Below, piece by piece: positions 7,562 through 26,704 of a stretch of DNA of 64,000 nt; the first letter of the stretch is position 1; each line of letters begins with the position of its first letter. The DNA is taken from the NCBI RefSeq assembly GCF_024171925.1, contig NZ_JAMTCO010000005.1:372001-436000 (forward strand). Direction: 5' to 3'. The notes under the pieces were generated by a model. That model was not told the DNA's origin. It searched no databases and saw only the letters and a list, made by a program, of their open reading frames with translations. The position numbers and the translations under genes are program-made. The DNA comes from Actinokineospora diospyrosa. GTDB taxonomy: Bacteria > Actinomycetota > Actinomycetes > Mycobacteriales > Pseudonocardiaceae.

Positions 7562-8484
7562 TAGAAGTAGCCCTCCCGCTTGCGGTCCTCCATGGCGGCC
7601 TCGGAGAGCCGGTCATCGGCGCGGGTGGCCCCGCGCTCGGTGAGCCTGCTCGCCGAGACCTCGGCGATCACCTCGTCGAGGTCGGCCGCCTCGGAACGCA
7701 CGGCACCGGTGCACGACCCGTCGCCGACGGTCCGGTAGCGGACGGTCAGCTCCTCGACGGGCTCGTCGGCACGCGGGCCGAACCACGGACCGGCCGTCAA
7801 CCACATACCGTCGCGCTGGAACACCGCTCGGGTGTGCGCGAAGTAGATGGACGGCAGCTCGATCGCCTCGCGCTTGATGTAGCGCCAGACGTCGAGTTCG
7901 GTCCAGTTGGACAGCGGGAACACACGAACGTGTTCGCCCGCGCGGTGCCTGCCGTTATACAAGTTCCACAGTTCGGGACGCTGACGCCGCGGCTCCCACT
8001 GGCCGAAGGAATTGCGTAGGCTGAAAATTCTTTCTTTCGCCCGGGCGCGCTCCTCGTCGCGGCGCCCACCCCCGAAAACGGCGTCGAACTTGTTGGCGGT
8101 GATGCCGTCCAACAAGGGGACTGTCTGCAAAGGATTTCGCGTTCCGTCCGGGCGCTCCTGCAGCCGACCGTCATCGATGTAGTCCTGCACGCTGGCCACG
8201 ACGAGGCGTAAGCCGTACCGGGCGACCGTCCGGTCGCGAAAGTCGATGACCTCGTCCAGGTTGTGCCCGGTGTCCACGTGCAGTAGCGGGAATGGGACGG
8301 GTGCGGGCCAGAACGCCTTGACCGCCAAGTGAAGTAGTACTGTGGAGTCCTTGCCGCCGGAGAACAGGATCACCGGTCGGTCGAACTCACCCGCCACCTC
8401 CCGGAAGATGTGGATGGCCTCGGATTCCAGGCGCGCCAACGCGTCCAGCGGCGGTTGGGCCCGGTCTGTCTGCTGTGTCGTCAT
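7561..8484 (-). CDS. cysD: sulfate adenylyltransferase small subunit
   Basis: CysD has 307 residues and the PP-loop motif FSGGKDSTVLLHLA that binds ATP. The FGGGRRDEERARAKER and WTELDVW segments of the ATP-sulfurylase PAPS-reductase family follow. It catalyses the adenylyl transfer from ATP to sulfate, with CysN as partner. It lies 13 bases after cysH and overlaps cysN, so the order cysH-cysD-cysN is one transcript. Confidence 0.95.
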   Translation of the reverse strand: MTTQQTDRAQPPLDALARLESEAIHIFREVAGEFDRPVILFSGGKDSTVLLHLAVKAFWPAPVPFPLLHVDTGHNLDEVIDFRDRTVARYGLRLVVASVQDYIDDGRLQERPDGTRNPLQTVPLLDGITANKFDAVFGGGRRDEERARAKERIFSLRNSFGQWEPRRQRPELWNLYNGRHRAGEHVRVFPLSNWTELDVWRYIKREAIELPSIYFAHTRAVFQRDGMWLTAGPWFGPRADEPVEELTVRYRTVGDGSCTGAVRSEAADLDEVIAEVSASRLTERGATRADDRLSEAAMEDRKREGYF

Positions 8485-20452: not shown

Positions 20453-20780
20453 GCTCGACCAGGAGGACGCCAAGATCGTCACCCTCGCCCGGTCCAGCCG
20501 GGCCCGCACGGGTGCCGCCGAGGGGGCCGCTGTGCGCGACACCGACGGCCGCACCTACGCCGCCGCGACGGTCGCGCTGCCCTCGCTGCGCCTCACCGCC
20601 CTGCAGGCCGCCGTGGCCGCCGCCGTGTCCAGCGGCGCCGAGGGCCTCGAAGCCGCCGCCGTGGTGACCGACGCGGGCGAGGTCGACGCCGCCTCGCTCG
20701 CCGCCGTCCGCGACCTCACCGCCGACGCCCCGGTCCTGCGCGCCGACGCCTCGGGCACCGTCGTCGACGTCCTCACGTGA
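20439..20780 (+). CDS. cytidine-deaminase-like protein lacking catalytic residues
   Basis: The 113-residue product resembles the small CDA-fold proteins found between the CorC-like gene and era in actinobacteria (RARTGAAEGAAVRDTDGRTYAAATVALPS as the strand-rich core, positions about 22-50). The HAE and PCxxC zinc motifs of real cytidine deaminases are absent, and the protein has no Cys in that region, so it is probably not an active deaminase. The GTG start at 20439 is behind GAGAGGAG and inside the preceding gene. The stop overlaps the next start (GTGA). Confidence 0.75.
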   Translation: MSVAELDQEDAKIVTLARSSRARTGAAEGAAVRDTDGRTYAAATVALPSLRLTALQAAVAAAVSSGAEGLEAAAVVTDAGEVDAASLAAVRDLTADAPVLRADASGTVVDVLT

Positions 20781-21106
20781 GCGTCCTCGTCACGGTCTGC
20801 CGGGATTGCTGCTGCGGAACCGTCCGCAAACACCCCACCGTCGACCACGGCCGCCAGCTGGCCCGCCTGCGCGACATCGCCGCCCGCCACGGCGGGGCGA
20901 TCCGCGTCTCCGAGTGCCTGGACACCTGCGAGACCTCGAACGTCGTTGTGGTGCAGGCGAAAGGCACCAAACCCATCTGGCTCGGCTTCGTCCTGGACGA
21001 CGCCGTCCTCGACGACATAGACACCTGGCTCACCAACGGCGGCCCCGCCACCGACCTCCCCGCCACCCTCACCCTCAACCGCGTCAGCCCACCCCGCGGC
21101 AAGTAG
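20777..21106 (+). CDS. thioredoxin-like [2Fe-2S] ferredoxin-domain protein
   Basis: This 109-residue protein has cysteines in CRDCCC near the start and SECLDTCET around residue 48, the arrangement of a thioredoxin-fold [2Fe-2S] ferredoxin or a (2Fe-2S) ferredoxin-like subunit. It is translated by GTGA overlap with the previous gene and is the last gene of the phoH-ybeY run before the RiPP locus. Its redox partner is not apparent. Confidence 0.75.
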   Translation: MSVLVTVCRDCCCGTVRKHPTVDHGRQLARLRDIAARHGGAIRVSECLDTCETSNVVVVQAKGTKPIWLGFVLDDAVLDDIDTWLTNGGPATDLPATLTLNRVSPPRGK

Positions 21107-21464
21107 CCCACGCCAGGGACACACCACGGGGTGTGGACGGCCGACGACAGGTGACGGGCGGCGGGTGGACCAGGGCACCCGCGCTCCGCCGGACGTCCGG
21201 GGTGGGTCCGCACTTGTGGGAAATCCCGTACTCGTCAGGCCGATGCGCTCAGTCTTGTGCACTAGTGGCAGGCATTCCGCGCTCACTCGCAGCCCACAAT
21301 CGTTGGTGGACAACGTGCCTGGCTGGCCCCTGTTCGGAAAATCCTTGGAGTGCAATATTTCCTGGGTGCTCATGACTGGTGAGAGCGCCTAGTCGGTCGC
21401 CGTCGCCCGCGTGCCGGAGCGGTGGTCAGCACGCTGTCCTCGGCGCCCGGAGAGAGGAACCAAG
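21107..21464 (+). other. intergenic region ahead of the RiPP precursor
   Basis: These 358 bases separate the 2Fe-2S gene from the precursor gene and are clearly less G/C-rich from about 21230 on. GGAAA and TTTCC form a short inverted repeat at 21336-21362 around an AT-rich CAATATTT segment that could be a promoter -10 region. No strong terminator and no convincing gene were found, so the locus probably has its own promoter here. Confidence 0.45.
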
Positions 21465-21692
21465 ATGACCGATCCCCAGCACCCGCGCGGTGCGTCGACG
21501 GTGCGCAAGGCGGTGACGGTCGTGCTCGCCGCGGGCGCACTGGCCGTCGGTGGGGCCGCGACCGCGACGGCGGACACCGGTTCGCCGCAGGCCTCGCAGG
21601 TCCTGCTCAACGTGACCCCGGACGGCGACGCGTCCGCCCCGCTGGGCGACAACAACGGGTGCACGATCAACAACAACGGGTGCTCCGGCTGA
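21465..21692 (+). CDS. putative RiPP precursor peptide with C-terminal NNGC motifs
   Basis: A 75-residue peptide gene with the ribosome site GAGAGGAA seven bases before ATG 21465. Residues 12-36 read like a Sec signal peptide (basic VRKA, hydrophobic stretch, ATA just before Asp37). Residues 37-61 are polar. The last 14 residues are GDNNGCTINNNGCSG-like, with Cys66 and Cys73 each preceded by Asn-Asn-Gly. No other cysteines and no aromatic residues are present in the core, so Cys- or Asn-based chemistry is more likely than aromatic cross-linking. It lies 75 bases before a radical SAM/SPASM gene on the same strand. No homolog is known to me. Confidence 0.75.
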   Translation: MTDPQHPRGASTVRKAVTVVLAAGALAVGGAATATADTGSPQASQVLLNVTPDGDASAPLGDNNGCTINNNGCSG

Positions 21693-21767
21693 CAGTGGTC
21701 CTGATCGGCCAACCGGCCGGGGACGCGGTCCGCCGTGTCCCCGGCCACCGTACGAAGGGAGCGTCCC

Positions 21768-23105
21768 ATGCGGATCAGCCAGTTCCTGGTGCCCTCGGAC
21801 TCGGTCCTGCTCGACGCCGGGGGCACCGCGGTCCGAGTGGTGCTGCAGTCGGCCACCGGGCAGGTGTACGTGCTCGCCGACGAGGTGCTGCGCGCTGTCG
21901 TCGACTGCCCGGAAGACCTCGACACGGCTACCGCCGCGCAGTTGGCCGAGGCGGGCATCCTGGTCGACGACGACGCGGACGAGTTCGCCGAGGTGGTCGC
22001 GGAGAACATCAGGGCGTCCCGGGACACCCGGAAGCGGACGTTCGTGCTCATGCCGTCGTCCTATTGCAACATGGGGTGCGGCTACTGCGGGCAGAAGCAC
22101 GTGAAGGGCGCGCAGAGCGCCGGGCACCGGGCCGCGGTGATCTCCCGGATCCGGCACGCGACCACCGCTGCGGGCGTCGAGCAGGTGCGCGTGTCCTGGT
22201 TCGGCGGCGAGCCGATGTTGGGGTACGCGCAGATCCTCGACATCTCCGCCGCGGTGACCGCGACCTGTGACCAGGCCGGGGTCCGGTTCGACGCGTCGAT
22301 GACCACCAACGGGTCCCTGCTCACCGTCGACAAGATCCGCAGGCTGCACCAGGAGTGCCGGGTCGGCTCGTTCGAGATCACCCTGGACGGCGTCGCCGAC
22401 ACCCACGACCGGCAGCGTCCGCTCAGCGGCGGCAGGCGCAGCTTCGACCGCATCGTGCACACCCTCGCGAGCGCGTGCGCCGACGAGTCGATGCCCGGGG
22501 TGCGCTTCTCGATCCGCACCAACGTCAGCCGGGCCAACCAGGAGGAGCACGCCGCGTTCGCCAAGGCCGTCGCCGACGGTGGGCTGGCGCACCCCCGGGT
22601 CGCGTTCTACACGGCGCTGGTCCGGTCGTGGGGCAACGACGTCAGCGACTTCGCCATCCACGGCGACGACACCGCCGAGGTGGATCGGCGCTGGATCGCC
22701 GCCTACCGCGACCACGGCCTCACCACGGCACTGCTCCCGTTGGCCCGCAAACCCGTCGTGTGCGTCGCCGTCACCCGTTCCGCCGAGGTCATCGACCCGG
22801 CGGGCAAGGTGCACTCGTGCACCGAGCAGCCGCTGGTACCGGGGCGCGAGCACACCGCGCTGGGCAGGGTGACCGACCTCCAGACCCCGGCCATCCGCCC
22901 GTCCGGCGCCTACGACGGCTGGTACGAGGACCTGCGGGGCGGCTCCAGCGGCGCCTACTGCCCGTCTTGCGCGATCTTCCCCATCTGCGGTGGCGGGTGC
23001 CCGCTGGTGTGGCACGAGGGGCGGCCCGCCTGCCCCACCATCAAGACGACCCTGCCCGCGCGGCTGACCACCTACGGCACGTCCTTGGGCTTGGTGCGGG
23101 GGTGA
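21768..23105 (+). CDS. radical SAM/SPASM peptide-modifying enzyme
   Basis: The 445-residue protein starts at ATG 21768 behind AAGGGAG. Its N-terminal ~80 residues look like the leader-handling domain of peptide maturases. The radical SAM cluster cysteines are C100, C104 and C107 (CNMGCGYC). Next come WFGGEPML and the SMTTNGSLL segment. The C-terminus fits the SPASM rule exactly: a C-x13-G-x4-C pair, then CPSC-x5-C-x3-C and a last Cys, enough for two further [4Fe-4S] clusters. Enzymes of this type form thioether or carbon cross-links in ribosomal peptides. The adjacent small Cys peptide is the likely substrate. An anaerobic sulfatase-maturase role is less likely, as no sulfatase is near. Confidence 0.88.
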   Translation: MRISQFLVPSDSVLLDAGGTAVRVVLQSATGQVYVLADEVLRAVVDCPEDLDTATAAQLAEAGILVDDDADEFAEVVAENIRASRDTRKRTFVLMPSSYCNMGCGYCGQKHVKGAQSAGHRAAVISRIRHATTAAGVEQVRVSWFGGEPMLGYAQILDISAAVTATCDQAGVRFDASMTTNGSLLTVDKIRRLHQECRVGSFEITLDGVADTHDRQRPLSGGRRSFDRIVHTLASACADESMPGVRFSIRTNVSRANQEEHAAFAKAVADGGLAHPRVAFYTALVRSWGNDVSDFAIHGDDTAEVDRRWIAAYRDHGLTTALLPLARKPVVCVAVTRSAEVIDPAGKVHSCTEQPLVPGREHTALGRVTDLQTPAIRPSGAYDGWYEDLRGGSSGAYCPSCAIFPICGGGCPLVWHEGRPACPTIKTTLPARLTTYGTSLGLVRG

Positions 23106-23232
23106 GTCGCGCCGGGACCCAGGTCGCGGATCGACCCGTCACCAGGTCCGTCGCGGTCGGCCCACGGGTGCCACGTCACCCTCGGGCCGCACCGCGTCAG
23201 CCTCTTGGGGACGGCAAGGGCACAATGACTTG

Positions 23233-24141
23233 GTGACAAGCACCGCCCAGGGCCATCGTTCCGGTTTCGCCTGTTTCGTCGGCAGGCCCAACGCGGGCAA
23301 GTCGACATTGACCAACGCGCTGGTCGGCACCAAGGTCGCCATCACCTCCAGCAAGCCGCAGACCACCCGGCACGCCATCCGCGGCATCGTGCACCGCGAC
23401 GACGCGCAGCTGGTGATCGTCGACACCCCCGGCCTGCACCGGCCGCGGACGCTGCTCGGCCAGCGGCTCAACGACATCGTCCGGGAGACCTGGTCGGAGG
23501 TTGACGTGGTCGGCTTCTGCGTGCCCGCCGACCAGAAGGTGGGGCCCGGCGACCGGTTCATCGCCGCCGAGCTGACCAAGGTCGCCAAGCGCACGCCGGT
23601 GATCGGGATCGTCACCAAGACCGACCTGGTCTCGCCGGACCAGGTCGGCGAGCAGCTGCTGGCGCTGCAGGAGGTCATGGAGTTCGCCGAGCTGGTCCCG
23701 GTCTCGGCCGTCGACGGCTTCCAGGTGAGCACCCTGGCCGACCTGCTGGTCGACCGGATGCCCGAGGGCCCGCAGCTCTACCCGGGCGGCGAGCTGACCG
23801 ACGAGCCGGAGACCACCCTGGTCGCCGAGCTGATCCGCGAGGCGGCCCTGGAGGGCGTGCGCGACGAGCTGCCGCACTCCATCGCGGTCACCATCGAGGA
23901 GATGACCCCGCGCGAGGGCCGCGACGACATGATCGACGTGCACGCGCTGCTGTACGTGGAGCGGGCCAGCCAGAAGGGCATCGTGCTCGGCCACCGCGGC
24001 GAGCGGCTCAAGCACGTCGGCTCGACCGCGCGCCGCCAGATCGAGGTCCTGCTCGGTACCCGGGTGTACCTGGACCTGCACGTCAAGGTCGCCAAGGACT
24101 GGCAGCGCGACCCCAAGCAGCTGCGCCGCCTCGGGTTCTGA
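23233..24141 (+). CDS. era: GTPase Era
   Basis: Era has 302 residues from GTG 23233. The G domain shows G1 GRPNAGKST, the G2 region with TTRHAI, G3 DTPG and G4 TKTD. A C-terminal KH domain carries GHRGERLKHVGSTARRQIE. It binds the 3' end of 16S rRNA and helps 30S assembly. In related genomes era follows the CorC/CDA-like genes directly; here the RiPP locus has been placed between them. A TTG one codon upstream is possible. Confidence 0.95.
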   Translation: MTSTAQGHRSGFACFVGRPNAGKSTLTNALVGTKVAITSSKPQTTRHAIRGIVHRDDAQLVIVDTPGLHRPRTLLGQRLNDIVRETWSEVDVVGFCVPADQKVGPGDRFIAAELTKVAKRTPVIGIVTKTDLVSPDQVGEQLLALQEVMEFAELVPVSAVDGFQVSTLADLLVDRMPEGPQLYPGGELTDEPETTLVAELIREAALEGVRDELPHSIAVTIEEMTPREGRDDMIDVHALLYVERASQKGIVLGHRGERLKHVGSTARRQIEVLLGTRVYLDLHVKVAKDWQRDPKQLRRLGF

Positions 24142-24437: not shown

Positions 24438-25190
24438 GTGAGCCTGTACCGCGACACCGGGGTAGTGCTGCGCGTGCAGAAGCTCGGCGAGGCGGACCGG
24501 ATCATCACGCTGATCACCCAGAAGCACGGCAAGGTCCGCGCCGTGGCCAAGGGCGTGCGCCGCACGACCTCCCGCCTCGGTGCCCGCGTCGAGCCGTTCG
24601 CCCACGTCGACGTGCAGTTCTACACCGGCCGCACGCTGGACGTGATCACCCAGGTGCAGACCATCGACGCCTTCGGCGCGGGCATCGTCGGCGACTACCA
24701 GCGCTACACCGCCGCGTGCGCGGTGCTGGAGACCGCCGACCGGATGTCCGCCGAGGAGGGCGAGCCGGTGCTGCGGCTGTACCTGCTCGTCGCTGGCGCG
24801 CTGCGGGCGCTGGCCGACGGGCAGCGCGACGCCTCCCTGGTGCTCGACGCGTTCCTGTTGCGCGCCCTGGCCTTCGCGGGCTGGTCACCGGCCATCGCCG
24901 AGTGCGCCCGCTGCGGCGAACCCGGCCCGCACCGCGCGTTCAACGTCCACGCCGGGGGGTCGGTCTGCCCCGGGTGCAAACCGCCGGGTTCGGCCAGCCC
25001 GCCTTTCGAGGTCCTCGACCTCATGGACGCGCTGGCCAACGGCCGCTGGGACGCCGCGGAGGAGTCCACCGACTCCGCCCGCCGCGAGGCGAGCGGCCTG
25101 GTGGCGGCGCTGCTGCAGTGGCACCTGGAACGCCAACTGCGCTCCCTGCCCCTGGTCGAGCGCCGCCCCCACAGCCCTAGATCGCCGTGA
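24438..25190 (+). CDS. recO: DNA repair protein RecO
   Basis: RecO has 250 residues from GTG 24438 (an in-frame GTG at 24432 is an alternative). The N-terminal OB-fold starts SLYRDTGVVLR and GEADRIITL. The zinc-finger cysteines CARCGEPG and CPGCK lie near residue 160-180. It helps load RecA in the RecFOR pathway. Its 3' end overlaps the 3' end of the convergent Ig-domain gene by 14 bases. Confidence 0.93.
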   Translation: MSLYRDTGVVLRVQKLGEADRIITLITQKHGKVRAVAKGVRRTTSRLGARVEPFAHVDVQFYTGRTLDVITQVQTIDAFGAGIVGDYQRYTAACAVLETADRMSAEEGEPVLRLYLLVAGALRALADGQRDASLVLDAFLLRALAFAGWSPAIAECARCGEPGPHRAFNVHAGGSVCPGCKPPGSASPPFEVLDLMDALANGRWDAAEESTDSARREASGLVAALLQWHLERQLRSLPLVERRPHSPRSP

Positions 25191-26421
25191 CGGTCAGCGT
25201 GGCGGTGTAGGTCCCCGCCACCGTGAAAGTCGGCACCACGAGCGAAAGATCGGCCACGAGCCGAGCTGTTCCGTTGCCCCCCGACGCCGCGGCGACGGCC
25301 AAGGTCCGTGCCGCCGCGAGCCCCTGCCCAGGCAGCGGCGACGCCCCTGGCGCGATGGCGTCCGCGGTAGGCACAGCGGACCCCGGCGACACGGTCTGCG
25401 CCGCGGACTTGTCGAGCAGCCGGGGCGACCAGCCGAGGTTGGCGCCGTTGATCCGGTGCACCCCGAACACGAAGTCGCTCACCTGCCCGGCGACGTTCCA
25501 GCCCGGGTTGCCCGCGCGGGTGTCGGTGACGGTCACCGGGTTGAGCACCCCGGCCGTGACCAGCCGCGCACCGTCCGCGGTCATCACCGGTGACGGCAGG
25601 ACGACCTCCCGGTTGTCCACACTGATCAACAACTCGCCGGGCAGGACGGTCGTGGTGATGTTCGCCGAGGCACCCCCCGCGCCGGAAACCTCGTGCGGGA
25701 CCGGAGGCGACGCAGAGCTCACGTAGCGCGCGGGGTCGCCGACGAACGCCGCCACGATGCTCAGCGGCCCGACTGGCAACGAAGAGGTGGTCAGCTCCGC
25801 CCGACCACCGACCAGTGGTGCGGCTCCCAACACCGTGGCGCCGCTGTGGAAGGTGACCACGCCGATCGCGTTCGCGGGGGAGACCGAGGCGGTCAACGTC
25901 ACCGGGGTCCCGTGGGCGCTGTGCCCAGCGGGGGAGACCGACAACGCGGTCGTCGTGGTCTCCACGGGAAGAATGGTGTAGTCGGTGGGTGTGGTGAAGG
26001 CGAAGTTCAGGACGAACACGCCGAGCACCGCGCCGGTGAACGAGTCGCGGCAGGAGAGCGCCGTGCGGTAGCCGCCCGGCTGGACGGTGGTGTTGTGCGC
26101 CGCCGCGATCTCGCGGAACGACAGGTTCTGCTGGGCCGGGAACGGGCCCGTTGTCGACAGGCCGAAGTCGTTCGGTTCGGTGGCGCGCAAGCCGGTGCTG
26201 AACCCGCCCGGGCCGAAGATGTCCAGGCTCCAAGAATCGGTCCCGGCGGGGCATCCGTACTGCGTGGTGTAGATCGGGGTTGTGGTGTCTGTCCCGGTGC
26301 TCCGGTTCGTGGACAAGCTACCCAGCGCGGATCCCGGTGCTTGAGCTTGTGCGGGAACGGATCCCAGTGTGACCGCCGCCAACGCGGCGACCACGACCGA
26401 GCAGATGGTGCGAATGCGCAT
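25177..26421 (-). CDS. secreted protein with a bacterial Ig-like domain
   Basis: The 414-residue protein starts at ATG 26421 behind GAGAAGGGG; further upstream starts lack such a site. The signal peptide ends at QAQA|PGS. A first domain of about 110 residues has two cysteines. An Ig-like (Big_5/Big_3 type) repeat follows ([21 protein letters not shown]). The C-terminal half is beta-rich with no cysteine. It is probably attached to or released from the cell surface and could be an adhesin-like or structural protein. Function is unknown. Confidence 0.75.
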
Positions 26422-26704
26422 CTTCTTTGAGCCCCTTCTCCCGTTCAGTGACCCGCCCGCCGCCACCGTCCCGGCCTACCGCCGCTTCGACGGGCGAGAC
26501 AAGCCGAACGCGCGTGCCGGGTGCTCCTCTGTGCGGTCCTCACCTGGGAAGTCGGGGACGAGGTGTATCGCGGCGCACGCGGAGGTGAGCGGCGGACGAA
26601 TGTTGATCCTTTGTGGACGCACCCGGTCGGCGGGGGCCCCGCCCGGGTGCCCCGGTAGCATTTCCGTTCGGCTTGGTCCGATCCCGGTGGAGGTGTGTAC
26701 AGCG

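Follow-up and report, generated by a model that had tools for sequence, protein, structure and literature searches.

Streptococcal NxxC peptides are ribosomally synthesized and post-translationally modified peptides (RiPPs) defined by an Asn-x-x-Cys (N-x-x-C) motif, and the available portions of PMC8326336 and PMC13361665 describe a radical S-adenosylmethionine (SAM) enzyme, NxxcB of Streptococcus orisratti, that links Cys23 of the precursor NxxcA to the beta-carbon of Asn20 in a beta-thioether. We describe here a locus with two copies of this motif in a 64,000-nucleotide stretch of Actinokineospora diospyrosa DNA (contig NZ_JAMTCO010000005.1, positions 372,001 to 436,000; the whole stretch is hereafter the window), in which a gene for a 75-residue precursor is followed by a gene for a radical SAM/SPASM enzyme. 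A preliminary description of this DNA had known of no described family with such a core, a statement overtaken by the NxxC peptides as those two sources, in the same portions, present them. Like NxxcA/NxxcB, the window locus has Asn-x-x-Cys beside a radical SAM enzyme, with the same order and spacing and a predicted Asn(i)-Cys(i+3) beta-thioether; unlike that system, it is actinobacterial, with two core units, Asp in some relatives, a signal-peptide-like leader and no third gene in the cassette. At a probability of about two in three, we consider the locus a two-gene RiPP cassette whose product would be a Sec-exported, ranthipeptide-like beta-thioether peptide with two Asn-Cys rings.

Several other systems share single traits with this locus. 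PapB (precursor PapA, product freyrasin) joins Cys to the C-beta of Asp; in PapA the order is Cys-X3-Asp, whereas in the window Asx (Asn or Asp) precedes Cys, and the portion of PMC9413430 at hand reports no PapB product on a transposed DSANCA peptide. CteB, which acts on SCIFF (thermocellin), has the RiPP recognition element (RRE), radical SAM and SPASM domains of the window enzyme; by contrast, SCIFF precursors are given, in partial source text, as having six Cys in 45 residues with links to Thr, and the window precursor has two Cys. Bufferins carry a Sec signal peptide on a RiPP precursor, although their enzyme is an MNIO rather than a radical SAM protein (PMC12452194, in part). N-x-x-C is present in the core of the window precursor; the NxxC peptides are further marked by their association with an Rgg/SHP regulator of a streptococcal host, whereas the present host is an actinobacterium whose cassette, about 2.05 kb long, can hold two genes. 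Since neither that regulator nor that host is found here, we do not class the locus with the streptococcal NxxC family; with its SPASM-bearing radical SAM enzyme adjoining a Cys-bearing precursor, we class it as probably working like a ranthipeptide. NxxcB was not found by alignment search, in which no named match was streptococcal and most matches were unnamed.

Results

A radical SAM/SPASM maturase gene adjoins a Cys-tailed precursor gene

Translation bore out the peptide and enzyme of the preliminary description: the precursor tail is DNNGCTINNNGCSG, with Cys66 and Cys73, and the precursor contains no Phe, Trp or Tyr, in agreement with the earlier view that a thioether is likelier than an aromatic cross-link. 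Open frames in a mechanical list of open reading frames (ORFs) reach further upstream, to GTG 21411 for the precursor and GTG 21735 for the enzyme; the ATG starts of both genes are preceded by purine-rich bases resembling a ribosome-binding site. The precursor matched no Pfam family and matched NCBIfam only at chance level, and a search of the host genome found no second copy (next match, E 0.167). Coordinates are collected in Table 1.

The radical SAM ligands C100, C104 and C107 and the full SPASM set, both read earlier from this one enzyme, were followed through an alignment of 34 enzymes that includes the window's own: all 34 have the former, and the seven SPASM Cys (332, 351, 398, 401, 407, 411 and 422) are conserved in at least 31 of them. 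The structure model of the enzyme predicts RRE, radical SAM and SPASM domains, the first with a PqqD-like winged-helix fold; its best full-length structural match was CteB, and SkfB was also among the matches. The top curated profiles were peptide maturases, every score lying far under its cut-off: TIGR04463 maturases ('vs C-rich'), the best-scoring named profile, gave 170.5 bits (cut-off 525), geopeptide 131 (400), CefB 127 (600), and PapB NF047865 84.3 (340). SCIFF TIGR03974 gave 53.6 (425) and sulfatase maturase TIGR03942 48.6 (349.45). Membership in the TIGR04463, PapB, SCIFF and sulfatase maturase families was rejected on these scores, and the close match to a sulfatase maturase that the preliminary description had named as speaking against a RiPP locus was thus not found. 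No paper naming TIGR04463 was found in the literature searched.

Table 1. Positions of the predicted features and flanking genes in the window.
Feature	Position	Strand	Basis or remark
Ferredoxin-like gene	20777-21106		Name from reading of the sequence; no Pfam match
Inserted cassette	21106..23167	.	Between ferredoxin-like gene and era; 15/15 relatives; blastn to one relative, L092
Precursor peptide, 75 aa	21465..21692	+	Translation; homologous precursors adjoining homologous enzymes; purine-rich bases 5' of ATG
Putative Sec-type signal peptide, residues 1-36	21465..21572	+	Predicted signal peptidase I cut between A36 and D37; crude composition rule
V46-P52, VL-x-N-[V/I]-T-P segment after signal peptide, candidate RRE-binding strand	21600..21620	+	Alignment of six precursors; putative role
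N63-N-G-C66, first [N/D]-x-x-C unit	21651..21662	+	Motif statistics; predicted Asn63-Cys66 thioether
N70-N-G-C73, second [N/D]-x-x-C unit	21672..21683	+	Motif statistics; predicted Asn70-Cys73 thioether
14-bp hairpin between the two genes	21715..21746	+	Fold z -3.74; putative attenuator or processing stem
Radical SAM/SPASM maturase, 445 aa	21768..23105	+	ATG 21768; translation, profile searches, structure model
N-terminal RRE-like domain, about residues 1-70	21768..21977	+	Predicted
CxxxCxxC radical SAM cluster site, C100/C104/C107	22065..22088	+	Translation, alignment
SPASM domain cysteines, C332 to C422	22761..23033	+	Translation, alignment
era	23230-24141		Downstream flank of cassette

[N/D]-x-x-C recurs in precursors beside related enzymes

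Enzyme homologs of Amycolatopsis, Actinomadura, Actinophytocola and Actinoplanes/Winogradskya (7 loci) were found to have a small peptide gene upstream of the enzyme gene. The tails of these precursors vary (NGIC, NVSC, NFGC, NWGC, NDSC, NAGC and NGGC), with Asn always at Cys -3, and NNGC, taken as the motif in the preliminary description, was rejected as the conserved unit in favor of N-x-x-C or D-x-x-C.

The survey covered overlapping genome sets, in which matches were obtained for 27 of 250 genomes of the Winogradskya family (1e-30), 3 of 65 of the genus Actinomadura (1e-40), 2 of 394 of the class (1e-40), 11 of 200 of the Actinomadura family, 7 of 249 of the window's own family and 1 of 80 of the genus Amycolatopsis; locus L107 was added from a TIGR04463 search. 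Duplicate rows were removed before counting (L001-L007 equal L039-L045; L108 and L115 equal G402, that is L038; L120 equals L040), and 49 distinct actinobacterial enzyme loci were obtained in total. Precursors were sought beside matches that passed the E cut-offs; ORFs were also listed, and left uncounted, for L009, L010 and L011, which fell short of them. Metagenomic proteins, which come without gene context, were also uncounted, P0060-P0062 being used only in core shuffling and the signal-peptide rule.

An upstream ORF was accepted when its stop lay within 1000-1560 of the oriented locus, its start was Shine-Dalgarno-like, a Cys fell in the last 12 residues, and G+C content at third codon positions was no lower than at second positions (GC3 >= GC2). 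By this rule, a Cys-tailed ORF was detected just upstream of the enzyme in 38 of the 49 loci, and [N/D]-x-x-C was present in 36 of those 38; by set, a motif-bearing upstream ORF was found in 28/35 loci of the first, 8/9 of the second and 0/5 of the third. In the first hold-out, where 8 of 9 loci fit, all 10 rule-passing ORFs carried the motif; in the second, where none of 5 fit, no convincing candidate was found within 8 kb on either side. The motif fell in the last 15 residues of 30/35 upstream ORFs compared to 13/239 ORFs elsewhere in the same loci (Fisher p about 9e-25, a guide only, because related loci do not count as independent samples). Among the 30, the ORF at L041 1003-1089 probably arose by chance, with the genuine one next to it. 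All 25 non-redundant cores contained [N/D]-x-x-C, compared to a mean of 7.0 (maximum 14) in 5000 shuffles, in a set some of whose precursors had been selected with the motif already in mind. Taken together, the gene pair and its motif exceed chance: related precursors lie beside related enzymes in other genera, as expected of the two-gene RiPP locus first proposed, and the motif stands above background.

At four further loci (L064, L065, L068 and L114) a precursor was located within about 8 kb of the enzyme; one of the four lies on the other strand and another is downstream. Their selection relied on a common D-[V/L]-[E/Q]-G-H leader or on a good core, which makes such distal precursors weaker evidence than adjacent ones. 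Likely precursors with a D-[V/L]-[E/Q]-G-H motif were seen some kilobases from the enzyme in L071, L072, L075 and L119; of these, one is on the opposite strand and another lies downstream. Scans of 8 kb gave motif-bearing ORFs in L073 (one), L075, L089 and L090 that were taken for chance, as was one of two in L119, where only the accepted ORF has Asx-x-x-Cys near its end. Five loci of one genus (L126-L130, in G1133, G1067, G1117, G1163 and G1148) carry the enzyme (38-41% identical; near 8001 in the oriented locus), and the sequence up to about 8 kb from it yielded no convincing precursor; a motif-bearing ORF of L128 was set aside as chance, its counterparts in L127, L129 and L130 being without the motif. 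The substrate of these five enzymes may lie elsewhere in the genome.

The precursor leader resembles a Sec signal peptide

The N-terminal half of the window precursor, passed over by the preliminary description as was the wider N-x-x-C unit, has K/R followed by an uncharged run at residues 16-36 that ends in A-x-A. By a crude composition rule, a charged n-region, hydrophobic run and A-x-A were present in 6/6 precursors of the window's clade, in which VL-x-N-[V/I]-T-P or a near variant comes after the A-x-A (the final Pro is absent from one of six aligned precursors). The signal-peptide label of 14 loci had been set by eye; the rule backs 8 of these and fails for L052-L055, L057 and L058, six loci whose hydrophobic run has no K/R ahead of it, and the remaining loci show neither layout. 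Two UniRef homologs are named 'Secreted protein' and 'Small secreted domain...'.

From these features of its sequence, we judge that the window precursor would be exported by Sec. The part of PMC12452194 available describes such signals as rare among bacterial RiPPs and gives bufferins as the only case with Sec export shown in a native host. The main alternative, that the stretch serves only as a RiPP leader or membrane anchor and the product leaves by another route, appears unlikely: it draws on the other clades, which share the core motif without any signal peptide, and on an MFS-type transporter of one neighbor cluster near 8 of 28 clustered loci (Pfam run on one copy), and it is opposed by the full signal layout in every window-clade precursor and by the two UniRef names. 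If Sec export holds, modification would precede it in the cytoplasm, because iron-sulfur clusters need a reducing place.

Asn/Asp exchange favors a bond to the beta-carbon

Asp occupies the motif position in the precursors that adjoin the enzymes of L046, L107, L116-L118, L049 and L059, and L038 carries one Asn-type and one Asp-type peptide. On the enzyme tree the Asp label needs at least 3 changes, with L049 and L059 inside otherwise Asn clades. This exchange is the main reason for favoring the beta-carbon as the site of the bond, because in both residues a CH2 group adjoins a carbonyl. A comparison of enzyme residues that switch with Asp versus Asn gave differences that track the distant Asp clade, none being shared by L049 and L059 against the Asn enzymes.

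That the same enzyme forms alpha-thioethers, with sulfur joined to the alpha-carbon of Asn or a neighboring residue as in sactipeptides, is improbable. CteB was deposited under a sactipeptide title, SkfB is among the structural matches, and one side clade has a leader domain of sactipeptide name (below); by contrast, the restriction of the -3 residue to Asn or Asp in nearly all loci with a rule-passing ORF is a limit that C-alpha chemistry does not need, and the known enzyme acting on N-x-x-C makes a beta bond (PMC8326336 and PMC13361665, in part). Some other chemistry at Asx-x-x-Cys (epimerization, a C-C bond or Cys oxidation), with the Cys later forming disulfides or extracellular metal ligands, is more improbable still, the sulfatase-maturase profile being far under its cut-off and disulfide pairing within the peptide being no shared purpose, because the last 28 residues contain just a single Cys in 11 of the 25 non-redundant cores.

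Observations that weigh against the proposed beta-thioether cassette

Several observations count against a Sec-exported beta-thioether product with a conserved [N/D]-x-x-C core. The upstream-ORF rule was written after the first-set loci had been seen; the motif guided the choice of the distal precursors at L064, L065, L068 and L114, and the precursors of L056, L062 and L063, though passing the rule, were first noticed in the same way. The upstream ORFs of L064 and L123 pass the rule without the motif and were taken for chance ORFs, and 17 of 52 Cys are without Asx at -3. No precursor was found in 9 of the 49 loci (L066, L067, L069, L070 and L121-L125), including all 5 of the second hold-out; enzyme homologs without a small Cys-tailed peptide, which the preliminary description had named as telling against a RiPP locus, thus occur in side clades and are absent from the window's own clade of 5 loci. 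The signal peptide is assigned by the crude rule, and other clades have no such peptide. The bond and its beta-carbon position are predicted from sequence.

In addition, the leader of a side clade (L060 and L109-L113) matches, in 3/3 peptides tested (46-69 bits, cut-off 30), the NCBI 'aroma-sacti' domain, whose name suggests alpha-thioether sactipeptides; an StsA-type profile matched two of the side-clade peptides, at 24 and 27 bits against a cut-off of 75. The leader domain of StsA-related/aroma-sacti precursors is common to this one side clade and is unmatched by the window precursor. The side-clade peptides pair the aroma-sacti leader with a core that ends in N-x-x-C, and leaders may be exchanged between thioether systems.

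The cassette is inserted between a ferredoxin-like gene and era

All 15 same-genus relatives have the ferredoxin-like gene followed by era, with a gap of 14-77 nt and without the gene pair, and the radical SAM matches from genome-wide searches of these relatives were all weaker, none exceeding 58 bits. The cassette is therefore an insertion or, less simply, was lost in 15 others. In comparison with one relative, L092, it is bounded by GCCCACGC and GCCCACGG, which are 7/8 identical; this direct repeat may be chance, because inspection of the insertion ends by eye showed no terminal inverted repeat. When the gap between the two genes was folded in four clade relatives, stems of other sequence were obtained (z -1.9 to -3.9). 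Consensus scans of 21000-23400 found no promoter-like or terminator-like sites.

Neighbors were clustered for 28 loci over 6-8 kb on each side, with Pfam run on one copy per neighbor type. Besides the MFS-type transporter, an HTH regulator on the other strand (9/28) and an S8 protease (5/28) were detected. The S8 protease forms a recurrent group with a GAF-domain protein and a cyclase/AAA protein in the vicinity of the enzyme in different clades (5, 4 and 5 of 28; L087 2099-6661, and L005, L006 and L007 8669-13221, with Pfam on the L087 copies only), and it is possible that they are regulators or a leader protease. In the window, recO and the undecaprenyl diphosphate synthase gene flank a gene at 25177-26466 (- strand) for a long protein, about 430 aa, that looks secreted.

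Discussion

We propose that the precursor consists of a signal peptide, an RRE-binding strand, a spacer and a core with two [Asn/Asp]-x-x-Cys units. The N-terminal RRE of the enzyme would bind the leader part in the cytoplasm, and the SAM cluster would abstract hydrogen at the beta-carbon of Asn63 and of Asn70; Cys66 and Cys73 would then bond through their thiols, giving two beta-thioether rings of four residues each that amount to lanthionine-like bridges bearing a carboxamide. The peptide would leave by Sec and be freed by signal peptidase I, and because of this no dedicated transporter or protease gene would be needed. The predicted 39-residue product starting at Asp37 has a calculated monoisotopic mass of 3772.654 when unmodified and 3768.623 with 4 H lost. 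Products of this kind usually have antimicrobial or signaling roles.

More tentatively, and at somewhat less than even odds, we suggest an actinobacterial family separate from NxxcB that staples Asn or Asp to the Cys three residues on by radical chemistry, producing lanthionine-like rings with a carboxamide or a carboxyl group, with a cleavable Sec leader in the window's clade, and for which two genes plus general secretion suffice. The N-x-x-C staple was already known in streptococci; the actinobacterial spread, the Asp variants and the secretion-signal-like leader appear newer. The actinobacterial family was not found in print, and a prior description is possible, as subscription papers were mostly outside the literature searched.

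The span of the predicted ring equals that of the Thr-x-x-Cys ring B of nisin, which is made by another chemistry. The natural Asn and Asp versions would allow acceptor choice to be studied, and a cassette of two genes is well suited to heterologous expression. With a Sec-exported radical SAM RiPP, one could test directly whether modification comes before export, as is asked for MNIO peptides in the available part of PMC12452194. If our reading is correct, the N-x-x-C beta-thioether would be a recurrent actinobacterial ring and not a streptococcal curiosity.
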